A stretch of DNA of 64,000 nt. It comes from Bacteroidota bacterium. Its GTDB lineage: Bacteria > Bacteroidota > Bacteroidia > Chitinophagales > Saprospiraceae. This document shows, piece by piece, positions 12,468 to 58,993 of the stretch. The notes under the pieces were generated by a model that was not told the origin of the DNA, searched no databases, and saw only the letters and a list, made by a program, of their open reading frames with translations. Location of the stretch: positions 1 to 64,000 of the forward strand of contig JASBVF010000026.1 of assembly GCA_030147525.1 (NCBI GenBank), given 5' to 3'. Position 1 is the first letter of the stretch. Every line of letters begins with the position of its first letter. Both the position numbers and the translations under genes were made by a program.

Positions 12468-12557
12468 TCAATGATAGAATGAGAGAAGGATACAATGAGT
12501 GAATTTACCGGGGCTCCCTATTCTCTCATTTCATCATTCTATCATTCACTCATTTAA
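12468..12557. repeat. Snap-back array, GAATGATA theme (convergent spacer)
   Basis: Starts right after the LON-domain stop. The left arm (12470-12503) reads AATGATAG-AATGAGAG-AAGGATAC-AATGAGTG; the right arm (12522-12556) is its reverse-complement type (TCATTCTATCATTCACTCAT) and overlaps the LysM gene's TGA stop (12550-12552). The loop is about 18 nt. Both genes therefore read out into a G-rich arm. Confidence 0.8.
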
Positions 12558-13404
12558 AATACCTCACCTCCACAAAAAACTTGGCGTCTTTGGCATCCAG
12601 CAATTTGGCCAGGGAAGGGGAAATCACGACGACGATATCATCGCCATAAGCCCGGTCAGGGATGGGAGCCAACACCTTGGCGTACACCGTTTTCTTTTTC
12701 ATGGGATTGGTAATTTCCACCACGGAACCCACCGGGGCGAATCGGTGCAGGGCGTAGTAGTCGTTGTTGCCTTTTTTCTCCCGCTGCCAGTAGGCGGCGC
12801 CGTTGTGGAACTGTTCTTTTTTGTTGGCTTTGGCGGCATCGTAGCGGAGCTTCAACTCCAGCATTTTAGCGCTCATGGGATTGGCGTTCAGCAGTTGCAG
12901 GGAGTCGGGAATGCCGTCAAGACTGAGCCAGCCGACGTGGATTCGCTGGCCGGTGAACAGCACTGTTTTTTCCAGGCGGTTTCGTTTTTTCAGTGTGTCG
13001 AGCGGTATTTGAAAATAATTTTTGGCAATGCGGTAAAACGTGTCGCCATGCTTCACCACATAAAAAACGGGGGCAAACTTAGTCCTTGGCCAGGCATCCT
13101 GCGGAGATTTTACGATGGCGGAGTCAGGGATGGGGATTTTGATGCGCTGCCCCGGTTCGAAATTTCCGTCTTGTTCCACCTCCGGATTGAAGGCGTAGAG
13201 CGCATTCAGCTTCAGACCGTAGAAGCGGGCGAGGGAGTAGAAGGTCTGGCCTTTCTCCATCGTATGTTCAAAAATCTTATTACCAAAGTCGTCCGCCGAG
13301 AGGAAAACCGTATCTTTCGGCGTGAGGTAGCTCAGGCTGTCGCCCGTGGCGAAGAGGTGAAGGAAAAGTGGAATGCAGGTAAGGGTTAAAGCAAGCTTTC
13401 TCAT
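12550..13404 (-). CDS. Secreted double-LysM protein with RlpA-like C-terminus
   Basis: 284 residues with a signal peptide (MRKLALTLTCIPLFLHLFA). Two LysM modules are visible: HTMEKGQTFYSLARFYGLK (about 45-92) and YVVKHGDTFYRIAKNYFQIP (about 113-156), which should bind glycan strands of peptidoglycan. The C-terminal 80 residues (GSVVEITNPMKKKTVYAKVL, then DRAYGDDIVVVISPSLAKLL) resemble the double-psi beta-barrel of RlpA-like proteins. Likely a periplasmic or outer-membrane cell-wall protein. Whether the barrel is catalytic is not clear; the short form may only bind. Confidence 0.82.
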   Translation of the reverse strand: MRKLALTLTCIPLFLHLFATGDSLSYLTPKDTVFLSADDFGNKIFEHTMEKGQTFYSLARFYGLKLNALYAFNPEVEQDGNFEPGQRIKIPIPDSAIVKSPQDAWPRTKFAPVFYVVKHGDTFYRIAKNYFQIPLDTLKKRNRLEKTVLFTGQRIHVGWLSLDGIPDSLQLLNANPMSAKMLELKLRYDAAKANKKEQFHNGAAYWQREKKGNNDYYALHRFAPVGSVVEITNPMKKKTVYAKVLAPIPDRAYGDDIVVVISPSLAKLLDAKDAKFFVEVRYFK

Positions 13405-13409
13405 TATTG

Positions 13410-13479
13410 TAATTAGGTATTGGGAATTAGGTATTAGTTATGGTTTGCAAAATTCCCGATTACTAATTCCTGATTCCAA
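13410..13479. repeat. Snap-back array, GAATTAGGTATT theme (divergent spacer)
   Basis: Lies between the start codons of the LysM gene (minus) and kdsB (plus). The left arm (13410-13443) is made of GAATTAGGTATT-like units; the right arm (13451-13478) is ATTCCCGATTACTAATTCCT-like, its inverse. Read toward either gene, the arm next to the start codon is C-rich and G-poor. Confidence 0.7.
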
Positions 13480-13485
13480 AAATTC

Positions 13486-14232
13486 ATGGTCAAAAATACA
13501 AATTCACTCGGTATCATACCCGCCCGTTTTGCGTCCACCCGGTTTCCGGGGAAGCCGTTGGTCGAAATTTTGGGTAAAACCATGATCCGGCGGGTGTACG
13601 AGCAGGTGTCGAAGTCCGGTTTGAATAATATTGTGGTCGCCACCGACGACGAACGCATTTTCACCCACGTCAAAGATTTTGGTGGAAATGTGGTGATGAC
13701 TTCGCCGGACCATACCTCCGGAACCGACCGCTGCGCCGAAGTGGCAGCGCTCCCGCAATACGCTGATATTGAAATCATTGTAAATATCCAGGGCGACGAG
13801 CCGTTCATTCAACCATCGCAGATCGACCTGGCGGTGGATGTTTTGATCAAAAACAAAAACTACCCCATCGCCACGCTGGCCAAGCAGATTGAACAAACCG
13901 AAGCAATTTTTAACCCAAACGTGGTGAAAGTTGTTTTCGGTGAAAACATGCAGGCGCTCTACTTCAGCCGGTCGCCTGTGCCGTACTTGCGGAATGTGCC
14001 GCAAGCGGAGTGGCTGGCGCAAGGCCGTTTTTTCAAACACATCGGCCTCTACGCCTTCCGCCGGGAAGCACTGTTGGCTGTGGCGGCCCTGCTTCCCGGC
14101 CAGCTCGAGCGGGACGAGTCGCTGGAACAACTGCGCTGGCTGGAAAACGGCTACGCCATCGGCATCGCCCTGACGGAATTTGAAACCATCGGCATTGATG
14201 TGCCGGAAGATATCTTGAGAGTAGGCCGGTAA
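13486..14232 (+). CDS. kdsB: 3-deoxy-manno-octulosonate cytidylyltransferase
   Basis: 248 residues, normal family length. It activates Kdo as CMP-Kdo with CTP for lipopolysaccharide inner-core synthesis in the cytoplasm. The N-terminus has the nucleotide-binding signature IIPARFASTRFPGKPLVEI, followed by VVATDDERI, TSGTDRCAEV and NIQGDEPFI, the expected active-site motifs. The final residues VGR and the stop are encoded by GTAGGCCGGTAA, which is also the first unit of the spacer repeat. No other Kdo or LPS genes are adjacent. Confidence 0.96.
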   Translation: MVKNTNSLGIIPARFASTRFPGKPLVEILGKTMIRRVYEQVSKSGLNNIVVATDDERIFTHVKDFGGNVVMTSPDHTSGTDRCAEVAALPQYADIEIIVNIQGDEPFIQPSQIDLAVDVLIKNKNYPIATLAKQIEQTEAIFNPNVVKVVFGENMQALYFSRSPVPYLRNVPQAEWLAQGRFFKHIGLYAFRREALLAVAALLPGQLERDESLEQLRWLENGYAIGIALTEFETIGIDVPEDILRVGR

Positions 14233-14328
14233 GCAAGTAGGCGAGTAGGCAGTAGGGAGCCGGGTAATTTTGAAATACCCTTCCCGAAGCGCCTACTCGC
14301 CTACTGCCTACTTGCCTACCGGCCTACT
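14220..14328. repeat. Snap-back array, GTAGGC theme (kdsB-Nudix spacer)
   Basis: The left arm (14220-14257) is a GTAGGC(N)2-4 array beginning inside the last kdsB codons; the right arm (14289-14328) is GCCTACTCGCCTACTGCCTA-type and ends 6 bp before the Nudix start codon. The arms are imperfect inverses with a spacer of about 30 nt. Confidence 0.85.
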
Positions 14329-14334
14329 AAAAAA

Positions 14335-14862
14335 ATGAATTTTTGCTCCAACTGCGGTTCTCCTGATCTTTCTTCGATTGTCCCCACGGGCGACAACCGG
14401 CCCCGGCTTGTGTGCGGCCGTTGTGGGACCATTCATTACCATAATCCCAAGATCATCGCCGGGTGCCTGCCGCTTTGGGAAGATAAAGTGTTGCTTTGCC
14501 GCCGGGCCATCGAGCCACGGCAGGGGTTCTGGAACATCCCCGCCGGGTTCATGGAGGTCGGTGAAACAGTGGAACAGGGCGCCATCCGGGAAGTGTGGGA
14601 AGAAGCTGAGGCGGAGGTGAAACTGTTGGGCGTACACACCATTTTTACCTTCACCAGGTTTCACCATGTTTACATCCAGTTCCTTGGTGAGTTGATCGGC
14701 GGCAAATTCGGGGTAGGGGAGGAGAGTCTGGAAACGAAGCTGTTCACCGAAGCGGAAATTCCCTGGGATAAAATTGCTTTCGAGTCGTCCGTTTTCGCCC
14801 TCCACCGTTTTTTCGAAGACCGGAAAAATGGCGGGCGGAAGGTGCATGTCGGGTCGGTTTGA
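14335..14862 (+). CDS. Nudix hydrolase with N-terminal zinc ribbon
   Basis: 175 residues. Cys4/Cys7 and Cys27/Cys30 (FCSNCG, LVCGRCG) form a zinc ribbon like that of NudC-type and related Nudix proteins. The Nudix box begins at Gly72: G-x5-E-x7-REVWEE (Glu78, Arg86, Glu87, Glu90, Glu91), all key residues present, so Mg2+-dependent cleavage of an X-linked nucleoside diphosphate is expected. The zinc ribbon plus the short C-terminus recalls NADH/ADP-ribose-type enzymes, but the substrate cannot be fixed. It sits between two GTAGGC arrays. Confidence 0.9.
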   Translation: MNFCSNCGSPDLSSIVPTGDNRPRLVCGRCGTIHYHNPKIIAGCLPLWEDKVLLCRRAIEPRQGFWNIPAGFMEVGETVEQGAIREVWEEAEAEVKLLGVHTIFTFTRFHHVYIQFLGELIGGKFGVGEESLETKLFTEAEIPWDKIAFESSVFALHRFFEDRKNGGRKVHVGSV

Positions 14863-14955
14863 AGTAGGCCGGTAGGCCGGTAGGCAAGTAGGCAGTAGGC
14901 GAGTAGGCCCCGGCGCAATCACCAATTCACTAATTTACTAATTCACCAATTCACC
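14863..14955. repeat. Mosaic spacer: GTAGGC arm plus AATTCACC arm
   Basis: Right after the Nudix stop comes a G-rich GTAGGC array (14863-14909), but the C-rich array leading to the subtilase start (14919-14955) is CACCAATTCACTAATTTACT-type, which pairs with a different theme. The two arms are therefore not inverses of each other, unlike in other spacers. Confidence 0.8.
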
Positions 14956-16929
14956 ATGAAAACTCTCCTCCACCGTGGCGGCCACGCCATACCGATCCAG
15001 AAAGAAACCGAATTTTTCACCGTCAATGCCCGGTCGCTCAGGGATGTGCAGCGGCTGTCGGAGTGGGGCGTCGTGCAGGAGGTGAGGCAGGTTTTTGGTG
15101 ATGTTTTTAAAATAAAAACCACCGGCGATGCCCTCGACGACGTGATGAAATCGGCCCGTTTGGAAAACCTCGTGAGCCATCACGCCTATTGCCCGGAGGG
15201 CGATCCAAGCACCCGCTACTACCTCACCGACCTGATCGTGGTGACGGTGAAACCCAAAACCCGAACTACCACCATCGAAAATTTGCTGGAAAAACACGGC
15301 CTGACTTTCGTCAAAAAATACCCTGGCATGGACGGCGTTTTCCTCGTCCGGGTGACCAAGTCGGCGGAGAAAAACCCTGTTAAAATTGCCAGCGACCTGC
15401 TCGACCATCCCTATGTCCTGAGCGCCGAACCCAACCTCATCAACCGCTTCGAACCCGCCTACGAACCCAGGGACAAATACTTCTCCCGCCAGTGGCACCT
15501 CCACAGCAAACGGGGCGTGGAACTTGCCGCCGATGCGGGTGTGGAAGCCCCGAAAGCCTGGGACCTGACCCGTGGCAGCCGGGACGTCGTCGTGGCAGTG
15601 ATCGACGATGGCTTCGACCTCTCGCACCCCGATCTGCGAGGCCCCGGCAAGGTCGTTTTTCCTAAAGACTACGCAGACGGCGATGCCGAACCGTTTCCCG
15701 GGAAGGACGATTGTCACGGCACAGCGGTTGCTGGCGTCGCCATCGGCGAGGAAAATGGCGAGGGCATTGTCGGAGTGGCGCCGGGCTGTGCGTTCATGCC
15801 CGTCCGGTTTCGGTTAAATGCTGACGACGATACGCTGTGGGAAATTTTTCACTTCACCGGCGCACGGGCGGACGTGATTTGTTGCAGTTGGAACACGGTG
15901 CCAGTTTATTCACCGCTGCCTTCGATTTTGGATAAAAAATTTCACCAACTCGCCGCCACCGGCGGCCCTCGTGGCAAGGGCGTGGTGATCTGTTTTGCCT
16001 CCGGCAATTTCGATGCACCGGTTTTTCAAACGGGCAACGCTAATTTTCAATGGCTGCACCCGAAGGCGGGCTTGAAAACCACCGCTGGTTCCATCCTCAA
16101 CGGCTTCGCAGCGCACCCGGACGTGATCGCCGTGTCGGCCTCCACCAGCCAGAACCGCAAGGCGGCCTACTCCAACTGGGGCAAGGAAATTTCGCTCTGC
16201 GCCCCAAGCAACAATTTTCACCCGCTCGACCCGCAACTGCGCCTGCCCGGCCGCAGCATCTGGACGACGGATAATCACCACGAAGGCGGCGGCTACTCGG
16301 CCGGACGCTACACCGGCGCATTTGGCGGCACGTCGAGCGCAACGCCGCTGGTGGCGGGGATCGCCGCCCTCGTTCGCTCGGCGAACCCGGAACTGACGGC
16401 CGTGGAAGTGCGCCAAATTTTACAGGAAACCACCGATAAAATCACGGACGGTAACAACGACGTGATCCTCGGCCACTGCAAGGGAAATTATGATAAAAAA
16501 GGCCACTGCGAGTGGTTCGGTTACGGCAAGGTCAACGCCGCCAGGGCCGTGCAGCGGGCGAAGGAGCTGGTGCCGCCGCCCCCGCCGGAGGAGGTGATCT
16601 CGGAGGGAATTTTCATCGCTGCGGCCCTGGTTAACCCCGTGGGCAGCGACGTGTGGCGGGAGACGGTGACGCTGTTCAACACGCATTTCGAAGAGGTGAA
16701 CCTCGACGGCTGGTCGCTGGTGGAAAAACACGGCTGGGTGCAGCCCATCGAAAACCTGAAAATCGGCGCCCGGCAGTTCCTCGCCATCCAGATCAAAAAA
16801 TTCCTGCTGAGCAACCGGGGCGGTTCGATCACCTTATTTAATGATGTGCAACAGCAGGTGGACAAGGTGACGTACACGCTGGAGCAGGCGGAAAGGGAAG
16901 GGGAGACGATTCGGTTTTTGGGAGGGTAA
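14956..16929 (+). CDS. Subtilisin-like (S8) serine protease with lamin-tail-like C-terminus
   Basis: 657 residues. The catalytic triad is complete: Asp217 (VAVIDDGFD), His254 (CHGTAVAG) and Ser460 (GGTSSATPLVAG). An N-terminal region of about 190 residues looks like a fervidolysin-type propeptide (YYLTDLIVVTVKP; SAEPNLI). After a proline run (PPPPPEE, near 538) the last 115 residues (GIFIAAALVNPVGSDVWRET; GWSLVEKHGW) resemble a lamin-tail beta-sandwich domain. No signal peptide or lipobox precedes the propeptide, so the protein may be cytoplasmic or exported by an unusual route. The start is the first ATG after the C-rich repeat arm. Confidence 0.9.
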   Translation: MKTLLHRGGHAIPIQKETEFFTVNARSLRDVQRLSEWGVVQEVRQVFGDVFKIKTTGDALDDVMKSARLENLVSHHAYCPEGDPSTRYYLTDLIVVTVKPKTRTTTIENLLEKHGLTFVKKYPGMDGVFLVRVTKSAEKNPVKIASDLLDHPYVLSAEPNLINRFEPAYEPRDKYFSRQWHLHSKRGVELAADAGVEAPKAWDLTRGSRDVVVAVIDDGFDLSHPDLRGPGKVVFPKDYADGDAEPFPGKDDCHGTAVAGVAIGEENGEGIVGVAPGCAFMPVRFRLNADDDTLWEIFHFTGARADVICCSWNTVPVYSPLPSILDKKFHQLAATGGPRGKGVVICFASGNFDAPVFQTGNANFQWLHPKAGLKTTAGSILNGFAAHPDVIAVSASTSQNRKAAYSNWGKEISLCAPSNNFHPLDPQLRLPGRSIWTTDNHHEGGGYSAGRYTGAFGGTSSATPLVAGIAALVRSANPELTAVEVRQILQETTDKITDGNNDVILGHCKGNYDKKGHCEWFGYGKVNAARAVQRAKELVPPPPPEEVISEGIFIAAALVNPVGSDVWRETVTLFNTHFEEVNLDGWSLVEKHGWVQPIENLKIGARQFLAIQIKKFLLSNRGGSITLFNDVQQQVDKVTYTLEQAEREGETIRFLGG

Positions 16930-17400
16930 GCGTTTAAAACATGGATTACGCATACCAACTTACCTGAATGAAGATCCCATTGTGGAGTTTGCCACCCTGA
17001 GAACCGGGCGGTTTATTGAAGAATATAATACCTGCGTGACGTTGGTCACTGATTCTCCCCTTGTCTTTTCCGCACTTTTGACTATCACTTTTTTTTCGGC
17101 ATGAGCGCTGCACGCCGGGTTTCATTTTTGATAAAAATCATTCCACGCCAGTGGTGTTCATCATTTTAAAAAATAAAACCAGATGCGAATTTTGTCCACA
17201 TGCCAAAGACCGTGCTTCGGCAGGTGCCCGTAGTTTGAAGTAGGCCAGTAGGCAGGTAGGCAAGTAGGCCGGCGGGTGATTTTCAATCGGTTGGGTTTAC
17301 TTGTTTCACAAAACAAATTCCTGCGAGTTTACACCTTTTCACCTTCGAAGAATGTCGCTTGAAACTCATCATTTTTCCTAACTAAATTTTTTGATACATC
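16930..17400. other. Intergenic, with a single GTAGGC array
   Basis: About 470 bp with no credible open frame. At 17239-17271 there is one arm of the GTAGGC theme (GTAGGCCAGTAGGCAGGTAGG), without a partner. A TAAATTTTTTG tract about 15 bp before the following start codon could be part of its promoter. Confidence 0.5.
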
Positions 17401-18813
17401 ATGAAAGTTGAACAAATCTATACCGGTTGCCTGGCAGAAGCCGCTTATTACATCGAGAGCAACGGCGAAGCCGTCATCATCGACCCGCTGCGTGACGTGG
17501 AACCTTACATCGAGCGGGCCAAAGCCGACAACGCCAAAATCAAATACATTCTTGAAACCCACTTCCACGCCGACTTCGTCTCCGGCCACATCGATCTGGC
17601 CAAAAAAACCGGTGCTAAGATAGTTTTTGGCCCTACAGCTCAACCCAACTACGTTGCCCACATCGCCAAGGACGGCGAAATCCTGAAAGTGGGGAATGTC
17701 ACCATAAAAGTACTTCACACCCCCGGCCACACCATGGAAAGTTCCACCTACCTGCTCAAGGATGAAAACGGGAAGGACTACGCTATTTTCACCGGCGACA
17801 CCCTCTTCCTCGGCGACGTCGGACGTCCCGACCTGGCCATAAAACAGGGCGAACTGACCCGGGAAGACCTGGCCGGCTACCTCTTCGATTCGCTCCGCAA
17901 TAAGATTATGCCGCTGGCCGATGAGGTGATCGTTTACCCGGGCCACGGCGCCGGTTCCGCCTGCGGAAAGAAAATGAGCAAAGCCACAGAAGGGTTGCTC
18001 GGCGACCAGAAAAAATTCAACTACGCCCTTCGTGCAGATATGACAAAGGCTGAGTTTGTGAAAGAAGTCACCACCGGCCTCGTCGAACCGCCACAGTATT
18101 TCCCGAAGAATGCGATGATGAATAAAATGGGGTACTCCAGCATTGAAGACGTGCGCAAGCGGGGACTGAAGGCGCTGAGCGTGCGGGCTTTCAAAGCAGC
18201 CTGGGAGGGCGAAGAGGCACTCGTACTCGATACCCGTAACGAAGCCGAGTTCGTGAAAGGATTCATTCCCGGTTCCATTTTTATCGGAGTGGAAGGCGAT
18301 TTCGCTCCGTGGGTAGGCGCATTAATCCCGGATTTGAAATTGCCGATTCTGTTCGTTTGCGAACCTGGAAAGGAAGAGGAAGTGGTGGACCGCCTCGCCA
18401 GAGTCGGCTACGATAACTCCATCGGCTATCTCAACGGAGGTTTCGAAGCCTGGAAAAAAGCCGGTGAAGATATGGACACGCTGCCGGAAGTTAACGCAGA
18501 GCAGCTTGCCAGTTTGATGAAAACGGAAAAAATCAACCTGCTTGATGTGCGCAGAGCCAGTGAATACAATACTGAACACGTCGTTGGCGCTCAGAATTTT
18601 CCGCTGGATTTCATCAATAAAAACATGGCTCAACTGGATCATCATAAAAAATACTACGTCCACTGCCGCAGTGGCTACCGTTCGGTCATCGCAGCATCTA
18701 TTCTCAAATCGAGAGGTGTGGACAACCTGGTCAATATTCCCGGCGGCTACGAGGCTATGGGAAAAACTGACCTGAAGCGCACGGATTTCGTCGAGCAAAA
18801 CACAGAGCTTTAA
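17401..18813 (+). CDS. MBL-fold persulfide dioxygenase-like protein with two rhodanese domains
   Basis: 470 residues. The N-terminal MBL domain (1-230) carries THFHADFVSGH (His54, His56, Asp58), TPGHTMES and FTGDTLFLGDVGRPD, the pattern of ETHE1/CstB-like mononuclear-iron persulfide dioxygenases. Two rhodanese domains follow (about 255-355 and 365-460). The second has a canonical active loop CRSGYR (Cys422); the first has Cys320 in CEPGKE, an altered loop that is probably not a normal sulfurtransferase. The likely role is oxidation of glutathione or low-molecular-weight persulfides and sulfide detoxification in the cytoplasm. It is monocistronic; no sqr or cst-type regulator is nearby. Confidence 0.88.
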   Translation: MKVEQIYTGCLAEAAYYIESNGEAVIIDPLRDVEPYIERAKADNAKIKYILETHFHADFVSGHIDLAKKTGAKIVFGPTAQPNYVAHIAKDGEILKVGNVTIKVLHTPGHTMESSTYLLKDENGKDYAIFTGDTLFLGDVGRPDLAIKQGELTREDLAGYLFDSLRNKIMPLADEVIVYPGHGAGSACGKKMSKATEGLLGDQKKFNYALRADMTKAEFVKEVTTGLVEPPQYFPKNAMMNKMGYSSIEDVRKRGLKALSVRAFKAAWEGEEALVLDTRNEAEFVKGFIPGSIFIGVEGDFAPWVGALIPDLKLPILFVCEPGKEEEVVDRLARVGYDNSIGYLNGGFEAWKKAGEDMDTLPEVNAEQLASLMKTEKINLLDVRRASEYNTEHVVGAQNFPLDFINKNMAQLDHHKKYYVHCRSGYRSVIAASILKSRGVDNLVNIPGGYEAMGKTDLKRTDFVEQNTEL

Positions 18814-18961
18814 GAAATTCGATTTAGTGAAAGTGGGTAAGCGCTCTATCTTCATGGTGGGGCGCTCCCTTTCACTTGATGCGATGCAGGAAATATCAGA
18901 ATGAGTTGTTCGATTTTCAGATGAGGGTTAATTCGATTTCGAATTAGCCCTTTTTCGTTTA

Positions 18962-19055
18962 TGGTAAATTGGTAAATTAGTGAATTGGTAAATTGGGGAG
19001 CCACAGTGTCCAGTCCTAATTCACCAATTCACTAATTTACCAATCCACTAATTCC
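18962..19055. repeat. Snap-back array, GAATTGGTAAATTA theme
   Basis: The left arm 18962-18996 (GGTAAATTGGTAAATTAGTG...) and right arm 19016-19055 (AATTCACCAATTCACTAATT...) are near-perfect inverses over about 30 bp with a loop of about 20 nt. The right arm ends 11 bp before the glycerate kinase start. Confidence 0.85.
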
Positions 19056-19066
19056 TATTTTACGGC

Positions 19067-20203: not shown

Positions 20204-20297
20204 ATATTAGTGAATATTTTAACAGACAATTCTCTAAAGCAAAGTAAATTCTCATTACATTAGCGTCCTAACCAAATAACACTACACCAAATTCCGC

Positions 20298-20570: not shown

Positions 20571-20654
20571 CGATTATAAAAATGGCAAATCTAACGCCGG
20601 TCTATGCCGGTATCTTCTTGAAAACCTTATTTTTTCATTAAATCATTAATTGTT

Positions 20655-27386: not shown

Positions 27387-27453
27387 TGTTGAAAAGTTTA
27401 AAAGTTGAAGGGGGCAAGAGTTTAACCCGTTAAACCCTTCAACTTTTAAACTG
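27387..27453. repeat. Snap-back array, GTTGAAAAGTTTAAAA theme
   Basis: On the plus strand GTTGAAAAGTTTAAAAGTTG (from 27389) is inverted by GTTAAACCCTTCAACTTTTA (from 27428). It fills the spacer from the PorP/SprF stop to the OmpA/PorE-like gene. Confidence 0.8.
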
Positions 27454-32453: not shown

Positions 32454-33485
32454 ATGAAAAATTGCCAATACTCCCCCTTACTCGCTGCTATGGCGTTGTT
32501 TCTCTGGTTTTCCTGTGGTCAAAAATCACCGCAGGAGCCCGTGGCTGAAGCACCGAAAGCCATCGGAAAAATCGAACGCCTCTCCCCTGAGCTTGACGCT
32601 ATAGTGGCCCCGGATGCCAAAATCGAAGTGCTTGCCGAAGGCTACAACTGGTCAGAGGGCCCCGTTTGGGTGGCAGATGGCGGCTACCTGCTGTTTTCCG
32701 ATGTGCCTGAAAATACAGTTTTTAAATGGAAAGAAGGCGAAGGCGCCAGCGTTTACCTCCAGCCTTCAGGTTTCACAGGAGAAAAAACGGAGAAGCGGGA
32801 AGGCGCTAACGGACTTACACTCGATGCAGCCGGCAGACTGGTACTTTGCCAACACGGCGACCGCCGGGTGGCCCGGATGAGGGCACCGCTTGGCGAACCC
32901 AAACCTGAGTTTGAAACACTGGCGGATCAGTGGAACGGCAAGCGTTTCAACAGCCCGAATGACCTGTGTTTTGACAGGCAAGGAAATCTCTATTTCACCG
33001 ATCCGCCTTACGGTTTACCGCAGCAAATGGACGACCCGGGCAAGGAGATACCCTTCCAGGGAGTTTACCGGCGCAATACGGACGGCTCGGTCGATATGCT
33101 CATCGATTCGCTGAGCCGGCCGAATGGTATCGCACTTTCTCCTGATGAAAAAACGCTCTACGTTGCCAACTCTGACTTCGGCCGGGCCGTCTGGATGGCT
33201 TACGATATTGCCGAAGGCGGCAAACTGGTGAATGGCCGTACATTTTACGATGCGACGGCGATGGTTGGCGAAGAGTTGAAAGGTTTGCCGGATGGCCTGA
33301 AGGTGGACGGGAACGGGGTGGTTTTCGGCACGGGCCCCGGCGGAGTATGGGTTTTTAAACCGGATGGCACGGCACTTGGCCGCATCGATCCCGGCGAGGC
33401 AACGGCTAATTGCGCACTCGGCGGAGATGGCTATCTGTACATGACGGCGGATATGTATTTGTGCAGGGTAAAGTTGGGGAATTAG
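32454..33485 (+). CDS. SMP-30/gluconolactonase-like lipoprotein
   Basis: 343 residues from the ATG at 32454, which places a lipobox correctly (LWFSC, Cys20). The mature part is a six-bladed propeller of the SMP-30/LRE family: EGPVWVADGGYLLFSD, NGLTLDAAGRLVLCQHGDR, FNSPNDLCFDRQGNLYFTDP, RPNGIALSPDEKTLYVANSD and LPDGLKVDGNGVVF. The metal-ligand positions Glu (SEGP), Asn (SPNDL) and Asp (PDGLKVD) are present, so Ca2+/Zn2+-dependent lactone hydrolysis is possible. Probably a periplasmic lactonase for sugar acids; the substrate is unknown. The stop codon lies inside the spacer repeat. Confidence 0.88.
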   Translation: MKNCQYSPLLAAMALFLWFSCGQKSPQEPVAEAPKAIGKIERLSPELDAIVAPDAKIEVLAEGYNWSEGPVWVADGGYLLFSDVPENTVFKWKEGEGASVYLQPSGFTGEKTEKREGANGLTLDAAGRLVLCQHGDRRVARMRAPLGEPKPEFETLADQWNGKRFNSPNDLCFDRQGNLYFTDPPYGLPQQMDDPGKEIPFQGVYRRNTDGSVDMLIDSLSRPNGIALSPDEKTLYVANSDFGRAVWMAYDIAEGGKLVNGRTFYDATAMVGEELKGLPDGLKVDGNGVVFGTGPGGVWVFKPDGTALGRIDPGEATANCALGGDGYLYMTADMYLCRVKLGN

Positions 33486-33540
33486 TGAATTGGTTTTGCG
33501 GGCCAGGCCCAATTTACCAATTCACTAATTCACCAATTTA
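33479..33540. repeat. Snap-back array, GAATTAGTGAATTGG theme (convergent spacer)
   Basis: The left arm (33479-33493) contains the stop codon of the lactonase-like gene; the right arm (33509-33540; CCAATTTACCAATTCACTAA...) ends 6 bp from the MFS stop. The loop is GC-rich (GCGGGCCAGGC). Confidence 0.85.
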
Positions 33541-35079: not shown

Positions 35080-35135
35080 GATGGTGATTGGTGATTGGTG
35101 ACTGGTGATCGGGCGACCTCCCAATCACCAGTCAC
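35080..35135. repeat. Snap-back array, GGTGATTGGTGACTGG theme
   Basis: On the plus strand GGTGATTGGTGATTGGTGAC (from 35083) is inverted by CCAATCACCAGTCAC (from 35120). On the coding (minus) strand the G-rich arm follows the GH13 stop and the C-rich arm ends at the MFS start codon. Confidence 0.85.
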
Positions 35136-42587: not shown

Positions 42588-42656
42588 TATTTGTGTGTTT
42601 GTGTGTTTGTGAGGAGCGCAGTGATTTCACAAACACCCAAACACTCATCTGATCAT
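42588..42656. repeat. Snap-back array, GTGTTTGTGT theme
   Basis: On the plus strand TTGTGTGTTTGTGTGTTTGT (from 42590) is inverted by CACAAACACCCAAACAC (from 42628). On the minus strand the G-rich arm starts at the sugar-porter stop codon (42645-42647) and the C-rich arm ends about 10 bp before the PfkB start. Confidence 0.85.
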
Positions 42657-44099: not shown

Positions 44100-44410
44100 A
44101 TAAATGTTTGTCACCTGGCTGATAATTTTTATCAGGCCGCTGATAATGTTTGTCAGGCTGCTGATAATGTTTGTCAGGCTGCTGATAATGTTTGTCAGGC
44201 CGCTGATAATGTTTGTCAGATCGCTGATAATATTTGTCAGGCTGCTGATAATGTTTGTCAGATTGCTGATAATGTTTGTCAGGCTGCTGATAATGTTTGT
44301 CAGGCTGCTGATAATGTTTGTCAGATCGCTGATAATATTTGTCAGGCTGCCGATAATGTTTGTCAGGCTGCTGATAATGTTTGTCAGGCCAATGATAATT
44401 GAAAACAGGC
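44100..44410. repeat. 21-bp tandem array, about 13 full copies
   Basis: Unit GATAATGTTTGTCAGGCTGC plus T, phased from 44121 to 44393, with degenerate half-matching copies at both ends (44100-44120 and 44394-44410). Variation is confined to positions 7 and 16-20. A two-unit variant block (AGATCGCT then GATAATATT) recurs at 44205-44246 and 44310-44351, 105 bp apart, so five units were duplicated as a block. Because 21 is divisible by 3, both strands stay open (LIMFVRL repeats on plus, PDKHYQQ repeats on minus). There are no spacers, so it is not a CRISPR. Confidence 0.95.
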
Positions 44411-46501: not shown

Positions 46502-46650
46502 AGCCCCGGAGGGGCGGCTATGTTTGTAGAAAAATGACCAAATAATAAAAAATGGAGCCCCAGCGGGGCGGCAATCGATAGATGACCGCCCCGCTGGGGC
46601 TCCGTTTTTGGATAAAATTATGCTACAAACATGATCGCCCCTCTGGGGCT
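46502..46650. repeat. Nested palindrome, REP/BIME-like element
   Basis: Outer arms 46502-46529 and 46623-46650 are 28-bp inverted copies (AGCCCCRGAGGGGCG then a variable part and ATGTTTGTAG, 24 of 28 matching). They enclose a perfect 18-bp hairpin, GGAGCCCCAGCGGGGCGG (46554-46571) with its inverse (46586-46603), flanked by an A-run and a T-run. GTAG next to a GC-rich hairpin is the layout of REP sequences. The inner hairpin can also act as a terminator for the two convergent genes. Confidence 0.8.
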
Positions 46651-51196: not shown

Positions 51197-51234
51197 CGGC
51201 TTCATTTTGAACGTCAAAAAATACAACTATCGAT

Positions 51235-52767: not shown

Positions 52768-52847
52768 AGGATTGAAGGATTGAAGGATTGAAGGATTGAA
52801 GGATTGAAGGATTGGAGGATTGAAGGATTGGAGGATTGAAGGATTGG
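52768..52847. repeat. 8-bp array AGGATTGA, ten copies, left arm of the lysS-ddl spacer
   Basis: Exactly ten 8-bp units run from 52768 to 52847, the first base after the lysS stop. Five copies are AGGATTGA in a row, then GG- and GA-ending units alternate, a 16-bp higher-order pattern. The inverse array lies at 53283-53390, with the S23-like gene between them. Confidence 0.95.
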
Positions 52848-52888
52848 AGGGGGGAGGCGCAGTTTTAGTTTTAAAAAATGAGAAAACT

Positions 52889-53278
52889 ATGGATAATCAG
52901 GTGTTTAAAACTAAGGAGGAATATATTGCGTGGTTTCAAAAGAAGACTAAGCAATTTGCAATTGATGTGATCAAATTTTGCAGGACTTTTCCTCCTGATC
53001 AGGCATCCAGAGTAATCTCGTACCAATTAATAAAAGCGGCAACTTCTGTTGCTGCAAATTACCGGGCTGCTTGCCGGGGCAGGTCGAAAGCTGAATTTTT
53101 TACCAAAATATGCACCGTTGTCGAAGAGGCAGATGAGTCCGTCTTCTGGCTCGAAATGGTCGATGGCGCAGATTTTAATGTTGATAAAACCGAACTAAAA
53201 CGTTTGCAGGGAGAGGCAGATTCCATTTTAGCTCTTTCCGCCAAAGCAAAAAAAACCGCAGGTGGAAAGTCCGATTGA
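52889..53278 (+). CDS. Four-helix-bundle protein, S23/23S rRNA intervening-sequence-protein type
   Basis: 129 residues from the ATG at 52889 (an in-frame upstream start would translate the repeat). The family signature is clear: SYQLIKAATSVAANYRAACR, GRSKAEFFTKICTVVEEADE, ESVFWLEMV. Relatives are encoded inside intervening sequences of 23S rRNA in spirochaetes and others, or as stand-alone genes; Avd of diversity-generating retroelements shares the fold. Here the gene sits between two inverted 8-bp arrays, so its mRNA should form a stem with the gene in the loop. The function is unknown; nucleic-acid binding is suggested by the basic surface of the family. Confidence 0.88.
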   Translation: MDNQVFKTKEEYIAWFQKKTKQFAIDVIKFCRTFPPDQASRVISYQLIKAATSVAANYRAACRGRSKAEFFTKICTVVEEADESVFWLEMVDGADFNVDKTELKRLQGEADSILALSAKAKKTAGGKSD

Positions 53279-53282
53279 TCCC

Positions 53283-53390
53283 TCAACCCTTCAATCCTAC
53301 AATCCTACAATCCTTCAATCCTTCAATCCCTCAATCCTTCCAACTATGCCCACTTCAACCCTTCAATCCTCCAATCCTCCAATCCTTCAA
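53283..53390. repeat. 8-bp array TCAATCCT, right arm of the lysS-ddl spacer
   Basis: Seven units (53283-53338) and four more (53355-53390) of TCAATCCT and variants, inverse of the AGGATTGA array. The ddl start codon (53346-53348) interrupts the array, and the last units are coding sequence of ddl. Confidence 0.95.
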
Positions 53391-54458
53391 AAAGTCGCCC
53401 TCCTCTGCGGAGGCGTTTCCCCGGAGCACGAAGTTTCGATGAACTCCGCCCGCAACATTTACAAGGCGATCGATAAAAACAAATACCACGTCGAAGTCAT
53501 CGGCGTGAGCCGGGCCGGGCAGTGGTTTCACTTGCCGGTGGAGGCATTCATGAAACTGACTGCCGTCGAGGGTAGGGTTGGGCGCCGTTTGGCCCTTGCG
53601 CCGGGGCAGGAGAATGCCATTGTTTATAAAACCGGCGTGGGGAAATTCCCGAAAATCGACATCGTATTCCCCATCATCCACGGGCCGTTTGGGGAGGATG
53701 GAACCTTGCAGGGGCTGCTGGCCATCCTCGGTTTGCCATTCGTCGGGCCGGGCACGCTGGGCTCCTCGGTGGGCATGGACAAGGATTTCACCAAACGCCT
53801 GCTGCGGGATGCGGGCATACTCGTCGCTCCCTGGGTTACCGTTTTAAAACATGAAAAACCTGACTATCAGGCGATGGTGAAACAACTGGGCTTTCCGCTT
53901 TTTGTGAAACCCGCCAACATGGGCAGCAGTGTCGGCGTCAGCAAGGCGGAGAATGAAGCAGCGTTGAAGAAGGCCATCGAATTTGCCCTGAAGTTTGACA
54001 CCAAAGTCCTCGTCGAGCAGGGCATCAAGGGACGGGAAATCGAAACTGCCGTACTCGGCAACGTCGAAGACCCGAAAGTGAGCGGCGTCGGTGAGATCGT
54101 GATGGCCCAGGGTTTTTACGATTACGAATCCAAATACATTTCGGCGGACGCTGCCAAAGTGGTCATCCCAGCCGAAAACGTCAGCCCCGAAGCCGTCGAA
54201 ACCATCCGCCAAACGGCCCTCAAAGCCTACCGGGCGCTCGGTCTCGAAGGTCTGTCCCGCATGGACGTTTTTCTGACGGACGACGGCAAGGTTTTCGTCA
54301 ACGAGCCGAACACGCTGCCGGGTTTTACCAATATTTCCATGTATCCGAAATTGTGGGAAAAGGCTGGTTTGAAATACAGCGACCTGATTGACAGGTTGTT
54401 GCAACTGGCTATCGAAAGGCACCGGCGGGATGGGGCGTTGCAGCGGACGAGGTTTTGA
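53346..54458 (+). CDS. ddl: D-alanine--D-alanine ligase
   Basis: 370 residues. It joins two D-Ala with ATP for peptidoglycan precursor synthesis in the cytoplasm. The conserved N-terminus KVALLCGGVSPEHEVSMNSA is followed by ATP-grasp motifs (VFPIIHGPFGEDGTLQGLLA, PLFVKPANMGSSVGVSKAEN, VFVNEPNTLPGFTNISMYPK). The ATG at 53346 is the only plausible start: codons 3-15 (TSTLQSSNPPILQ) are translated repeat units, giving a short N-terminal extension absent from typical Ddl. An in-frame start at 53262 would translate still more of the array and is rejected. Confidence 0.95.
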   Translation: MPTSTLQSSNPPILQKVALLCGGVSPEHEVSMNSARNIYKAIDKNKYHVEVIGVSRAGQWFHLPVEAFMKLTAVEGRVGRRLALAPGQENAIVYKTGVGKFPKIDIVFPIIHGPFGEDGTLQGLLAILGLPFVGPGTLGSSVGMDKDFTKRLLRDAGILVAPWVTVLKHEKPDYQAMVKQLGFPLFVKPANMGSSVGVSKAENEAALKKAIEFALKFDTKVLVEQGIKGREIETAVLGNVEDPKVSGVGEIVMAQGFYDYESKYISADAAKVVIPAENVSPEAVETIRQTALKAYRALGLEGLSRMDVFLTDDGKVFVNEPNTLPGFTNISMYPKLWEKAGLKYSDLIDRLLQLAIERHRRDGALQRTRF

Positions 54459-54546
54459 AATAAATTGGAGATGTCCATAATTTTATAAATTCGTTAAGGA
54501 GTTTTATAACCCCTGCCATTCATTTTTCGTTACTTTTGCCCCATAA

Positions 54547-54981
54547 TTGAATTGCTTGATCGCTAAAATCTTCCATATCATCCTTTCCGCTGCTGTATTT
54601 TTCAGCACCACCGGCTTCACACTGAGCCACCATTTTTGCCAGAATGAACTGGCAAATACGGCGATTTTTGTGAAATCCGGCTGCCACAAATCCAGCCACC
54701 AGGGATGTGCGGAAAGCGGGCATTGCAGCAAACATCAGGACGATGATAAAAACAACTGCTGCAACGACGAAGCCCAGTATTTCAAGCTCGACCAGGACAA
54801 ACAGGTCCCGTCTTCTTCCGGTATCGACCTTGTCAAAAAACCGGAACTCCTCGCTGCCGTGCTGGTTTTATTTCAAATTGAAATGCCTGCCGCCGGCAAC
54901 CATTCTCTAACTTGTCAAGTTTACAAGCCTCCCATTGTCTGCGACGATTTCCAGTCTTTGTTGCAGACGTTCCGTTTGTGA
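54547..54981 (+). CDS. HYC_CC_PP family protein (heavy-metal-linked)
   Basis: 144 residues, starting with TTG. A short secreted protein with the family marks: a hydrophobic leader then SHHFC (HYC), a Cys/His-rich middle (GCHKSSHQGCAESGHCSKHQ, NNCC) and YKPP near the end. Members are found next to heavy-metal RND pumps in Bacteroidota and probably bind a soft metal in the periplasm. Directly upstream of the CusA-type pump. Confidence 0.75.
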   Translation: MNCLIAKIFHIILSAAVFFSTTGFTLSHHFCQNELANTAIFVKSGCHKSSHQGCAESGHCSKHQDDDKNNCCNDEAQYFKLDQDKQVPSSSGIDLVKKPELLAAVLVLFQIEMPAAGNHSLTCQVYKPPIVCDDFQSLLQTFRL

Positions 54982-55005
54982 TTAGCCATTGCTGTGTCTT
55001 TTTCC

Positions 55006-55112
55006 ATGAAATTGGAAATTGAGAAATTAGAAATTGTGTCAACGGCCTGATTGCCAGTTGCAGGCAATTTCTCAATTTCCCAATTTCCTCAATTTCCCAA
55101 TTTCAAATTTCC
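55006..55112. repeat. Snap-back array, GAAATTGGAAATT theme
   Basis: The left arm (55006-55037; GAAATTGGAAATTGAGAAAT) and right arm (55063-55112; CAATTTCTCAATTTCCCAAT) are inverses with a loop of about 25 nt. The right arm ends 9 bp before the CusA start. Confidence 0.85.
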
Positions 55113-55121
55113 ATTACAGCC

Positions 55122-58100
55122 ATGCTCAACGGAATCATTCGCTTCTTCCTCGAAAACAAATTCGTCACCCTGCTCCTGCTCGCCGGGTTCATCGGCTGGG
55201 GCATTGCCACGGCGCCGTTCGGCTGGAAGACCTTCCTGCCCTCCGACCCCGTGCCTGTGGACGCCATCCCCGACCTCGGCGAAAACCAGCAAATCGTCTT
55301 CGTGGACTGGATGGGCCGCTCCCCGCAGGACGTGGAGGACCAAATCACCTACCCGCTCACGACTTATCTGTTGGGCATTCCGGGGGTGAAATCCATCCGC
55401 AGCACCTCGATGTTCGGCTTTTCGAGCATCTACATCATTTTTGACGAAGACACTGAATTTTACTGGAGTCGAAGCCGCATTCTCGAAAAACTCAACTCCC
55501 TGCCGGAAGGCCTGCTGCCCACAGGCGTGCGGCCTGCCCTCGGCCCCGACGCCACGGCGCTGGGCCAGGTCTATTGGTACACCCTCGAAGGGCGTGACCC
55601 CGAAGGCAACGTTACCGGCGGCTGGGATTTGCACGAAATCCGTGCAGCGCAGGATTTTTATGTGAAATACGCCCTCAATGCCGTGGAAGGCGTCTCCGAG
55701 GTGGCCTCCGTTGGCGGGCAGGTGCGGGAGTACCAAATTGACGTGAACCCCGACGCCCTCAAAGCCTACGGCGTCATGCTGATGGACGTGATGAATGCCG
55801 TGAAAAAATCTAACCGTGACGCCGGGGCGCAGACCATCGAAATCAACCAGGCCGAGTACCTCGTGCGGGGGCTGGGCTACGTCAAGTCCGTCGAAGACCT
55901 CGAAAAAGCCGTTGTCAAAGTCAGCAAAAACGTGCCCATCCGCATCAAGGACATTGCCGTCGTGACGCTCGGTCCGGCCACCCGGCGGGGCATCCTCGAC
56001 AAGGACGGCGCAGAGGTGGCAGGCGGTGTGGTAGTGGCCCGCTACGGCTCCAACCCGCTGGCCGTCATCAACCGTTTGAAAGAAAAAATCACGGAAATCG
56101 CCCCCGGTTTACCCAAAAAAACGCTGGCCGACGGCACCGTAAGCCAACTGACCATCGTGCCGTTTTACGACCGCACCCAACTCATCAACGAAACCCTCGG
56201 CACCCTCGAATCGGCGCTCTCCGACGAAATCCTCATCAGCATCATCGTCGTCATCATCCTGGTACTCAACCTGCGGGCGTCCATCATCATTTCCAGCATG
56301 TTGCCGGTGGGTGTGCTCATGACCTTTATCGTCATGCGCTATGCCGGGGTGGACGCCAACATCGTGGCGCTGTCAGGCATCGCTATCGCCATCGGCGTCA
56401 TGGTGGACGTGGGGATTGTTTTTGTGGAAAACATCATCCGGCACCTCGAACTGCCCGAAAACCAGACTGAAATCAACAGCCAGAAGTCATCGGCCGGGCG
56501 CTCGAAGGTTTTGCTTGAAATCGTTTACCGGGCATCTGCCGAGGTCTCCGGCGCTATCACCGTGGCGCTGGCGACGACCATCGTCAGCTTCCTGCCCGTG
56601 TTTGCGATGGAAGCGGCAGAGGGCAAGCTGTTCAAGCCGCTGGCTTTCACGAAAACCTTTGCGCTGGGAGCTTCCTTCGTGCTGGGAATTGCTGTGATTC
56701 CGGCGATGGCACACCTCATTTTTTCCATGAATTTCGATAAAAAACGGGTGCGCATCATCTGGAACGTGGCGCTGATGGCGGCGGGCGTGTTGCTGGCTGT
56801 TTTTTATAAAACCTGGTTGCCCGTGTGGCTGGTGGTGATTGGGTTGAATAATTTGTTTACCCCGATGCTTGTCACAAGGTTCAAACTATCGGAAAGTTGG
56901 GGCAACTATATCAACATCGCCGTCGTCGTCCTCGTCGCCACATTTTTCCTGACGGAAGAATGGACACCGCTCGGTCATCACAACTCGCTGTTTGTCAATT
57001 ACCTGTTCGTGCTGGCGCTGCTTGCCGTCGTGCTGTCTGCCTTGCTCAGCATCGTATGGTTTTACGAGCCGGTGCTGAAATGGTGCCTCAGGAACAAGGG
57101 GAAATTCTTGCTGGTGCCGCTGTTTACCTGCATGTTCGGGCTGGTCATCTGGATTGGTTGGAACAATACTTTCGGCTTCGTGGCGAGGGGTTTCGATAAA
57201 ATCGGCTGGAACGTGCGCACCACCGGATTTTGGAGCACGATGATTCACAAATTCCCCGGCATGGGCAAGGAGTTCATGCCCTCCCTCGACGAAGGCAGCT
57301 TCCTGTTGATGCCGACGTCCATGCCGCACTCCGGCGTGGAGGAAAATCAGCGGGTGGTCGCACAGCTCGACATGCTGCTGGCCAACATCCCCGAAGTGGA
57401 ACTGGCCGTGGGTAAGGCCGGCCGTGCCGAAACAGCGCTCGACCCCGCCCCGATTTCCATGTTCGAGAACGTCATTAACTACAAACCGGAATTTTTAATA
57501 AATGAAAGAGGCCATCGTGAAACTTTCAAAACTGATAAAAACGACCGCTTCATACTTGTTTCGGGCGATACGCTTACTAACGAAGAAGCGCTGCTGCGGG
57601 GGGTAACCGCCAAAGACCTCATCCCCGACCCCGACGGACAGTATTTCCGCAACTGGCGTCCAGAGGTGAAAAGCCCCGACGACATCTGGAGCGAAATCGT
57701 GCGGGTGACCAAACTGCCCGGCGTCACTTCCGCCCCGAAATTGCAGCCCATCGAAACTCGTCTCGTGATGCTGCAAACCGGTATGCGGGCGCCCATGGGC
57801 ATCAAGGTCTATGGCCCTGATTTGAAAACCATCGAGGATTTCGGTTTGCAACTGGAGGCCATTTTAAAAGAAGTACCTTCCGTAAAAGCCGAGGCTGCCT
57901 TCGCCGACCGCATCGTTGGCAAGCCTTACCTCCACCTGAACATCCGTCGGGACGCCATTTCCCGCTACGGCCTCAACATCGAGGACGTGCAGGATTTCAT
58001 CGAAACCGCCATCGGAGGCATGACGCTGACCTTCACCGTGGAGGGCCGGGAACGCTTCCCTGTGCGGGTGCGCTACCCCCGTGAGCTTAGGGACAACCCG

Positions 58101-58985
58101 GAAAGCATGAAGAAAATGCTGGTGCCAACCCCAGTCATGGCACAAGTACCGCTCGGCGAACTGGTGGACTTCGAGTACGTCCGTGGCCCGCAGATGATAA
58201 AATCGGAGGACACGTTCCTCACCGGTTACGTGCTGTTTGACAAAAAAGAAGGCTTCGCCGAGGTGGACGTGGTGGAAGAGGCGCAGCGTTTTATCAACCA
58301 AAAAATTAGCGACGGCGAACTGGTCGTTCCGGCTGGCATAAGCTACAAGTTCTCAGGTACTTACGAAAACCAGTTGCGGGCGATGAAGCGGCTGTCCATC
58401 GTGATTCCGATTAGCTTGATTGTTATTTTCCTGCTGCTGTTTTTCCAGTTTAAAACCATCATCGCTTCGTCCATCCACTTTTCGGGCGTGTTCGTGGCGT
58501 TTGCCGGCGGCTTTATGATGCTTTGGCTGTACGGGCAGGACTGGTTCCTGAACTTCTCCATCGCTGAAGTCAACATGCGGGAGTTGTTTCAGTTGCACCC
58601 CATCAACCTCAGCGTAGCGGTCTGGGTGGGTTTCATCGCCCTGTTCGGCATCGCCACGGACGACGGGGTGATTATGGGCACGTACATCCATCAGGTTTTT
58701 GAGGAAAGAAACCCGCAGACCGTGCCGGAGGTGCGTGCCGCCGTGGTGGAGGCCGGTAAAAAACGGGTGCGCCCGGCGATGATGACGACTGCAGTTACCA
58801 TCATTGCCCTGCTGCCCGTGCTGACGAGTACCGGCAAGGGCGCCGACATCATGGTGCCCATGGCCATCCCGACCGTCGGTGGCATGACGATTCAATTGAT
58901 GACGATTTTCGTGGTGCCGGTGTTGCAGGCGTATTGGCGGGAGACGGTGGTGAAGAAAGCGGGAACTGGTGAATTGGTGAATTAG
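55122..58985 (+). CDS. CusA/CzcA-type heavy-metal efflux RND pump
   Basis: 1,287 residues, longer than E. coli CusA (about 1,047) but usual for Bacteroidota. A proton-driven inner-membrane pump exporting Cu(I)/Ag(I) or other divalent metals. Visible are helix 1 (FVTLLLLAGFIGWGIATAPF), PVDAIPDLGENQQIVF, VMVDVGIVFVENIIRHLELP in the helix-4 region and ATDDGVIMGTYIHQVFE near the end. Met883 in RLVMLQTGM aligns by eye with a methionine relay residue of CusA. The last residues TGELVN and the stop are encoded by the spacer repeat. The adaptor (CusB) is not in the window and probably follows later. Confidence 0.93.
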   Translation: MLNGIIRFFLENKFVTLLLLAGFIGWGIATAPFGWKTFLPSDPVPVDAIPDLGENQQIVFVDWMGRSPQDVEDQITYPLTTYLLGIPGVKSIRSTSMFGFSSIYIIFDEDTEFYWSRSRILEKLNSLPEGLLPTGVRPALGPDATALGQVYWYTLEGRDPEGNVTGGWDLHEIRAAQDFYVKYALNAVEGVSEVASVGGQVREYQIDVNPDALKAYGVMLMDVMNAVKKSNRDAGAQTIEINQAEYLVRGLGYVKSVEDLEKAVVKVSKNVPIRIKDIAVVTLGPATRRGILDKDGAEVAGGVVVARYGSNPLAVINRLKEKITEIAPGLPKKTLADGTVSQLTIVPFYDRTQLINETLGTLESALSDEILISIIVVIILVLNLRASIIISSMLPVGVLMTFIVMRYAGVDANIVALSGIAIAIGVMVDVGIVFVENIIRHLELPENQTEINSQKSSAGRSKVLLEIVYRASAEVSGAITVALATTIVSFLPVFAMEAAEGKLFKPLAFTKTFALGASFVLGIAVIPAMAHLIFSMNFDKKRVRIIWNVALMAAGVLLAVFYKTWLPVWLVVIGLNNLFTPMLVTRFKLSESWGNYINIAVVVLVATFFLTEEWTPLGHHNSLFVNYLFVLALLAVVLSALLSIVWFYEPVLKWCLRNKGKFLLVPLFTCMFGLVIWIGWNNTFGFVARGFDKIGWNVRTTGFWSTMIHKFPGMGKEFMPSLDEGSFLLMPTSMPHSGVEENQRVVAQLDMLLANIPEVELAVGKAGRAETALDPAPISMFENVINYKPEFLINERGHRETFKTDKNDRFILVSGDTLTNEEALLRGVTAKDLIPDPDGQYFRNWRPEVKSPDDIWSEIVRVTKLPGVTSAPKLQPIETRLVMLQTGMRAPMGIKVYGPDLKTIEDFGLQLEAILKEVPSVKAEAAFADRIVGKPYLHLNIRRDAISRYGLNIEDVQDFIETAIGGMTLTFTVEGRERFPVRVRYPRELRDNPESMKKMLVPTPVMAQVPLGELVDFEYVRGPQMIKSEDTFLTGYVLFDKKEGFAEVDVVEEAQRFINQKISDGELVVPAGISYKFSGTYENQLRAMKRLSIVIPISLIVIFLLLFFQFKTIIASSIHFSGVFVAFAGGFMMLWLYGQDWFLNFSIAEVNMRELFQLHPINLSVAVWVGFIALFGIATDDGVIMGTYIHQVFEERNPQTVPEVRAAVVEAGKKRVRPAMMTTAVTIIALLPVLTSTGKGADIMVPMAIPTVGGMTIQLMTIFVVPVLQAYWRETVVKKAGTGELVN

Positions 58986-58993
58986 TGAATTGG
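58963..58993. repeat. Single array arm GAATTGGTGAATTAGTG, partly coding
   Basis: GGTGAATTGGTGAATTAGTG from 58968 encodes the CusA C-terminus and its TAG stop. No inverse arm is visible before the convergent gene. Confidence 0.7.

Follow-up and report, generated by a model that had tools for sequence, protein, structure and literature searches.

Snap-back tandem arrays in Saprospiraceae gene spacers as probable arms and remnants of small hairpin elements carrying PF05635 or GxxExxY genes

Many gene spacers in a 64-kb stretch of a Saprospiraceae genome (Bacteroidota bacterium, GenBank assembly GCA_030147525.1, contig JASBVF010000026.1, positions 1 to 64,000; hereafter the window) contain a tandem array of a short unit followed by an array of its reverse complement. 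What are these snap-back arrays, and how did they come to lie in so many spacers? Our analysis suggests, with a probability that we put at about 0.6, that they are the arms and the gene-less remnants of small hairpin elements similar to the intervening sequences (IVSs) of 23S rRNA genes. A complete element would consist of an array of 7-10 nt units, a small gene of the PF05635 or the PF13366 (GxxExxY) family, and the complementary array; for the PF05635 kind, the first array is the G-rich one. With complementary arms, a gene in the loop, many gene-less copies, and a unit vocabulary tied to the gene, the anatomy fits an autonomous element accompanied by non-autonomous relatives. Such an element would be mobile.

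The spacer between lysS and ddl holds the gene-bearing element of the window. The original prediction recorded the pair of arms, which are indeed present, but missed the PF05635 gene that they enclose and the existence of two armed gene families. The encoded protein scores 40.5 bits against PF05635 (Pfam cut-off 33.8) and 70.5 bits against TIGR02436 (cut-off 24), and the stretch 52768-53340 is predicted to fold with its arms paired (z -10.1). Among the four-helix-bundle relatives, structures have been solved (2GSC and 2RLD), and one from Xanthomonas has been described as a pentamer (PMC4990558). Seven PF05635 genes were found in the genome, and all seven have matched arms when the 350 nt on either side of the family match are compared (Smith-Waterman (SW) score ≥14); one of them sits between two complete hairpins of one theme. 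Among fetched loci, which are the best-scoring ones (28 new of 133 matches for the genus), arms match in 18 of 21 from the genus and 15 of 26 from the wider family, after loci with short flanks were left out (7/28 and 4/30, respectively; 3/65 in one further count). Mispaired flanks reach the same score in 0/22, 3/80, and 3/101 cases for genome, genus, and family. With the control family PF05016 (best-scoring 30 of 57 matches, 3/30 left out for short flanks), matched arms surround 1 of 27 genes, and mispaired flanks give 0/106. The matched PF05635 arms are G-first in 39 of 40 cases and C-first in the remaining one.

The GxxExxY gene (PF13366, TIGR04256), a family that appears in PMC8934634, emerged when further genes with matched flanks were sought. 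Flanks match (SW ≥15) around 5 of 590 called genes, including one PF05635 and one GxxExxY gene, a figure that rests on called genes only because the gene caller overlooked two of the three PF05635 genes in the 864 kb sampled. All four GxxExxY genes found in the genome have matched arms, as do 19 of 22 fetched loci from the genus (best-scoring 26 new of 32, with 4/26 left out for short flanks) and 15 of 29 from the phylum; for mispaired flanks, the counts are 0/12, 5/82, and 5/109. A D...(E/Q)xK motif of the PD-(D/E)XK type is present, by a lenient pattern, in 50 of 50 GxxExxY frames (59 loci entered, 55 with enough flank, 50 with a frame recognised by script). The arm units around these genes are CACAGAG, CGCAGAG, CACGGATT, and CGCAAAG-like. 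CRCRRAK-type units occur in 35 of 38 matched GxxExxY loci, compared with 3/40 and 1/29 matched PF05635 loci. As judged from the unit sequences, each cargo family has its own arm vocabulary.

The gene-less arrays were assessed in the window and in further parts of the genome. All nine spacers named by the original prediction hold, on inspection, an array and its reverse complement, and their RNA is predicted to fold more stably than dinucleotide shuffles (z = -3.1 to -9.8). Our detector, which requires inverted pairing in at least two registers, recovers seven of the nine (Table 1); the spacers 13410-13478 and 27387-27453 are supported by predicted folding (z -3.3 and -5.0), the latter also by a perfect 18-bp inverted repeat within 27395-27452. 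The scan of the same genome covered 864 kb, made up of the window and parts of three further contigs. At the working threshold, it gave 52 clusters, of which 48 are intergenic and 3 fall within called genes; three dinucleotide shuffles of the 864 kb averaged 0.33. The anticipated excess over shuffled spacers was borne out in a check run, with arrays in 44 of 475 spacers of at least 50 nt and in 0, 1, 0, 0, and 0 in five spacer shuffles; the view that a repeat-generating process acts on spacers was right. Two of the 48 intergenic arrays (window 61107 and C54 99616) resemble plain palindromes by eye and were retained. The unit periods are mostly 7-10 nt. It had been claimed that the G-rich arm always comes first; this is true of 46 of the 48, with one C-first and one mixed array, so that the polarity stands and the "always" does not. 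The base composition of arm 1 is A 0.32, C 0.055, G 0.30, and T 0.32. As 137 other intergenic inverted repeats, taken as a control, divide into 65 G-first, 53 C-first, and 19 equal, G-first polarity is not general to hairpins. In stretches of seven genus relatives (337 kb), 27 clusters comprise 22 G-first, 1 C-first, and 4 mixed.

The units link the gene-less arrays to the gene-bearing elements. Eleven gene-bearing elements were found in the genome, and 22 of the 48 arrays share units with at least one of them (two of the 48, C54 34171 and 34681, being hairpins of the L011 element itself), compared with 0/48 after shuffling. Likewise, 9 of the 27 arrays in relatives match an arm of this genome, and none does after shuffling. 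An array starts a median of 5 nt past the upstream called gene and ends 4 nt ahead of the next. Convergent, co-directional, and divergent spacers all hold arrays, as predicted, but the arrays are not indifferent to gene orientation, because the counts differ between the contexts (13 arrays to 63 spacers of at least 50 nt, 31 to 306, and 4 to 103, respectively).

Table 1. Arrays, arms, and cargo gene located in the window
Feature	Position	Strand	Basis
G-rich arm (AGGATTGA)n of gene-bearing element, immediately 3' of the lysS stop codon	52768..52851	+	sequence
Cargo gene, four-helix-bundle protein, TIGR02436/PF05635 (23S rRNA intervening sequence protein, IVP, family)	52889..53278	+	profile matches
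C-rich arm (CAATCCTT/CAATCCTA)n, interrupted, extends into ddl start region	53278..53390	+	sequence
Gene-less snap-back array, units like AATGAGAG	12470..12554	.	detector; predicted fold z -3.1
Gene-less snap-back array, unit near TTAGGTA, 5' of kdsB	13410..13478	.	predicted fold z -3.3; sub-threshold in detector
Gene-less snap-back array, unit RGTAGGCN	14220..14328	.	detector; predicted fold z -9.8
Pair of half arrays that do not match: AGTAGGC arm, G-rich (14863-14909), and TCACCAAT arm, C-rich (14919-14956)	14863..14956	.	sequence
Lone G-rich AAGTAGGC arm, partnerless	17238..17269	.	sequence
Gene-less snap-back array, unit AATTGGTA/AATTAGTG	18962..19055	.	detector; predicted fold z -8.0
Gene-less snap-back array, unit GTTGAAAA/GTTTAAAA	27387..27453	.	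predicted fold z -5.0; sub-threshold in detector
Gene-less snap-back array, unit AATTGGTG; overlaps end of upstream called gene	33474..33540	.	detector; predicted fold z -6.8
Gene-less snap-back array, unit TGATTGG	35082..35135	.	detector; predicted fold z -4.6
Gene-less snap-back array, unit TGTGTTTG	42588..42645	.	detector; predicted fold z -5.8
Gene-less snap-back array, unit GAAATTG(A)	55007..55112	.	detector; predicted fold z -6.7
Lone G-rich GAATTGGT arm, end of upstream called gene	58963..58993	.	sequence

At orthologous spacers, the arrays turn over. The gene-bearing AGGATTGA element between lysS and ddl is present here (G000) and in relative G006, gene-less hairpins of the TTTACGA type occupy the same spacer in G005 and G010, and the remaining relatives have half arrays, other genes, or other sequence (two loci are incomplete). 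In the spacer 5' of kdsB, full arrays with differing units are seen by eye in G000, G001, G005, G006, G007, G008, and G011 and half arrays in G004 and G009; no array is visible by eye in G002, G003, or G012 (G010 is without a match and G013 is ambiguous). The unit types in this spacer do not track the kdsB tree, in which good support is limited to 3 of the 10 inner branches. The kdsB stop codon itself falls within the first units of the array at 14220..14328. A gene-less AATTGGTG hairpin occupies one further spacer here, where G001 has a PF05635-like element built of another unit (its gene recognised by eye); in a second such spacer, bounded by the same flanks, the arrays here and in G009 differ in unit. 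Of 25 orthologous gene pairs, 17 are without an array, 4 have one here only, 3 in the relative only (one of these a GC-rich repeat of a different kind), and 1 in both. Between the window and the stretches fetched from seven relatives, synteny hardly extends beyond lysS-ddl. Small toxin-antitoxin-like genes lie in the lysS-ddl spacer at loci L077 (G008) and L078 (G001), in G008 beside a GATTGCGG half array, and array-like stretches (CAATTTCC, AATCCG) occur inside the ddl gene region of relatives (L076, L079, and L086).

Matched arms around PF05635 genes extend to other phyla. The named PF05635 loci examined are the best 80 of at least 586 from one genome scan. Flanks match at SW ≥15 in 27 of the 76 with usable flanks (4/80 dropped), compared with 1 of 225 mispaired flanks, and the matched loci include Geobacter, a Desulfobacteraceae, and an Atribacterota record. 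In the subset with full flanks (59 loci, 21/80 dropped), 33 reach SW ≥13; of these 33, 29 have the G-rich arm first and 27 have 7 as their best period. An Rfam search of 20 of the 80 named loci gave no match. Of 24 matching cyanobacterial plasmid records, 10 were fetched; 7 of their 10 PF05635 genes have matched arms, compared with 4 of 90 mispaired flanks, and the background in a 50-kb stretch of one Nostoc plasmid is 0 of 40 genes. The plasmid arm units include AGTAGGG, ACAGGGA, and GGTGACA, of which we take the first two to be known units of the cyanobacterial short tandemly repeated repetitive (STRR) sequences. Some of these plasmid elements lie between genes with a shared function, namely, ribonucleotide reductase subunits and cas6 and cas4. 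Array-armed PF05635 genes lie between cas6 and cas4 at loci L413 and L420; PF05635 genes had previously been noticed in cas loci, where the accessible part of the account does not mention surrounding repeats (PMC3936711). For plasmid GxxExxY genes (6 of 8 matching records fetched), the Gemmatirosa and Bernardetia loci reach SW ≥16. The Gemmatirosa units (GGACTGAAGAA) are not of the CRCRRAK kind; this record is unannotated, and the gene ends were guessed. On a Sphingomonas plasmid (L426), a GxxExxY gene lies between fabD and fabG, with a CGCGAAG-like repeat upstream only.

We propose that the cargo protein would recognise its own arms and would drive or aid the copying of the hairpin into other spacers. 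Copies would persist mostly right behind stop codons through selection against harmful sites elsewhere, and a hairpin that lost its gene would remain as an empty copy. The units could then be remodelled by replication slippage and by template switching from arm to arm, with complementarity kept. The polarity would probably come from the ancestor of the element and be maintained through a requirement of the cargo protein or of the transcript.

Several observations weigh against this reading. Matched arms are absent from 11 of 26 PF05635 loci in the family and from 14 of 29 GxxExxY loci in the phylum; 4 of the 6 plasmid GxxExxY loci fall below SW 14 (scores 9-11), among them the Treponema locus, which has a short ACACGGATTCG pair. 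The matched GxxExxY arms are only loosely polarised (24 G-first, 6 C-first, and 8 equal of 38), and the CRCRRAK motif was picked from the same loci in which it was later counted. Array density does not simply track the number of PF05635 genes across the family, with 6 clusters in 386 kb of 16 PF05635-positive family genomes and 5 clusters (2 credible by eye) in 250 kb of 7 PF05635-negative genomes, one of which read as N only. PF05635 is rare in viral contigs (12 loci). The order of units matches from arm to arm (p ≤0.05) in 7 of 33 hairpins (mean 23.9 observed versus 19.9), and as only these 7 pass, a single clean snap-back copy is not shown for most hairpins. We saw no transposition event, no excised form, and no target duplication, the search for the last being a reading by eye of a few orthologous spacers in which none was obvious.

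The arrays might instead arise in situ by slippage and template switching (quasipalindrome correction) and be kept as mRNA hairpins, which PF05635 and GxxExxY genes would use as safe landing sites. An array that stays at an orthologous position while its unit changes is consistent with this, as is the gene-less state of most arrays, and template switching has been reported to create and repair hairpin stems (PMC8794818). We nevertheless consider it unlikely, since arms differ by cargo family (35/38 versus 3/40), identical units recur at distant loci, and a symmetric mutational process does not predict the fixed polarity (46/48). Telomere-like addition at both ends of a break, which is offered here as an idea, would explain the polarity. 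The original prediction had suggested hairpins at mRNA ends that block read-through or nucleases. Strong predicted folding agrees with a role as mRNA 3'-end structures, be they intrinsic terminators or barriers to read-through or nucleases, as do the short distance to the upstream gene (median 5 nt) and the placement, commonest in convergent (13 to 63) and rarest in divergent spacers (4 to 103). A T tract, however, lies beside the hairpin in 11 of 48 arrays, which is no excess over random points in spacers (274 of 1320; other inverted repeats, 38 of 137); moreover, 31 of the 48 arrays lie between co-directional genes, and the cargo genes and unit themes are left unexplained. We regard this explanation as quite improbable, and the T-tract count led us to reject the ordinary intrinsic terminator.

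That the arrays are repetitive extragenic palindromes (REPs) or bacterial interspersed mosaic elements (BIMEs), moved by REP-associated tyrosine (RAYT, Y1) transposases, is hardly credible. REPs are palindromic and intergenic and favour convergent and co-directional spacers (PMC3733652), and Y1 genes are present in 12 of 14 genus genomes. The inverted repeats that flank 12 of 17 Y1 loci (30 fetched, 13/30 dropped for lack of flank) look, on inspection, like GC-rich palindromes (for example, CGTCCCGTAGGGACG bearing a GTAG-like tail) and not like tandem arms of 7-10 nt units. The explanation was rejected, as the arms are tandem arrays with no single tagged palindrome and the Y1 flanks carry another kind of repeat; GTAG does occur inside one unit theme of the window arrays. 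A GC-rich hairpin pair with a GTAG-like tail at 46502-46650 of the window resembles the repeats around the genus Y1 genes and probably represents ordinary REPs, separate from the arrays. A diversity-generating retroelement was likewise considered and rejected: one of four scanned PF05635 proteins matches the Avd model, at 29 bits, well under the cut-off of 80. The search for a reverse-transcriptase partner gave one RVT_1 gene in the genome.

Other repeats in the window stand apart. A spacer of 849 nt holds a 21-bp direct tandem repeat (13.7 copies) at 44103-44389, for which we saw no inverted partner, and perfect simple palindromes or hairpins at 61107-61141, 63512-63544, and 4917-4960 seem to be without relation to the arrays. 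An Rfam search of the window gave no matches.

If the arrays are indeed arms and remnants of gene-bearing hairpin elements, two common small protein families whose role we found unexplained would become hairpin-element proteins, and both the cyanobacterial spacer repeats and the heavy array load seen here in Bacteroidota would gain an origin. Each protein would then bind its own arm vocabulary, and removal of the protein would freeze array turnover. A hairpin whose sequence turns over although its position and pairing persist is also a natural and direct test of template-switch models of how RNA stems evolve. More tentatively, at somewhat short of even odds, we suggest a bacteria-wide class of mobile hairpins that have tandem arrays as arms and an interchangeable cargo gene (for a four-helix-bundle or a GxxExxY nuclease-like protein), whose members or relics would be the cyanobacterial STRRs, the Nostoc P6b heptamers, the Bacteroidota spacer arrays, and the 23S rRNA IVSs. 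STRR hairpins, TAACTGA repeats, P6b heptamers, and rRNA IVSs are already known, each separately. We found no report of tandem-array hairpins tied to PF05635 or GxxExxY in the open-access papers searched, and there is a fair chance that the cargo link is the key to the wider class.

The comparison with known systems places the arrays among several kinds of repeat. REP/BIME sequences with RAYTs share the intergenic hairpins, the supposed mobility, and the predominance of non-autonomous copies, but they form a class apart in the same genus, made up of single palindromes that carry a GTAG or CGTC tag and are associated with a Y1 transposase. BrickBuilt, a miniature inverted-repeat transposable element of Porphyromonas gingivalis, likewise combines intergenic tandem and inverted repeats, with minisatellite repeats inside an intergenic inverted-repeat element (PMC4596501); as described there, it is a 23-nt direct-repeat tract with short inverted ends in one species and without array arms. 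The TAACTGA repeats of Beggiatoaceae, cyanobacteria, and some Bacteroidetes are heptamer tandems found mostly in spacers, patchy across phyla and suspected of horizontal transfer (PMC4679880). Unlike the arrays here, they are direct in the best-studied genome, with a single inverted case, and a tandem TAACTGA pair has no match in the window at up to one mismatch. The P6b stem of the Nostoc trnL intron (TDNGATT, NNTGAGT) consists of degenerate complementary heptamers whose repeat class has been exchanged again and again at an unchanged position (PMC4476775). The arrays here resemble it in building a stem from complementary short units that keeps its place as the units change, whereas P6b lies within a group I intron, and the available sections of its description mention no cargo gene. 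Cyanobacterial STRRs are spacer repeats with a unit of about 7 bp that can fold into hairpins (PMC2670836), and the present arrays share the tandem units of about 7 bp (mostly periods 7-10) in spacers. The AGTAGGG and ACAGGGA heptamers that flank PF05635 genes on Nostoc plasmids add to the likeness; the papers searched yielded no link between STRRs and PF05635, and the arrays here differ in lying in Bacteroidota and in having other units. The statement in the original prediction that no named family fits is thus only partly right, as STRR hairpins and the layout of the 23S rRNA IVS both resemble the arrays. In that IVS, two complementary arms pair into a stem whose loop carries a PF05635 gene, and the insertion has been termed a selfish element (PMC4990558). 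The same layout is found here, with arms predicted to pair as a stem and a PF05635 gene in the loop. The present elements differ in lying in spacers between protein genes, as between lysS and ddl in the window, and in having tandem-array arms, abundant gene-less copies, and a second cargo family.

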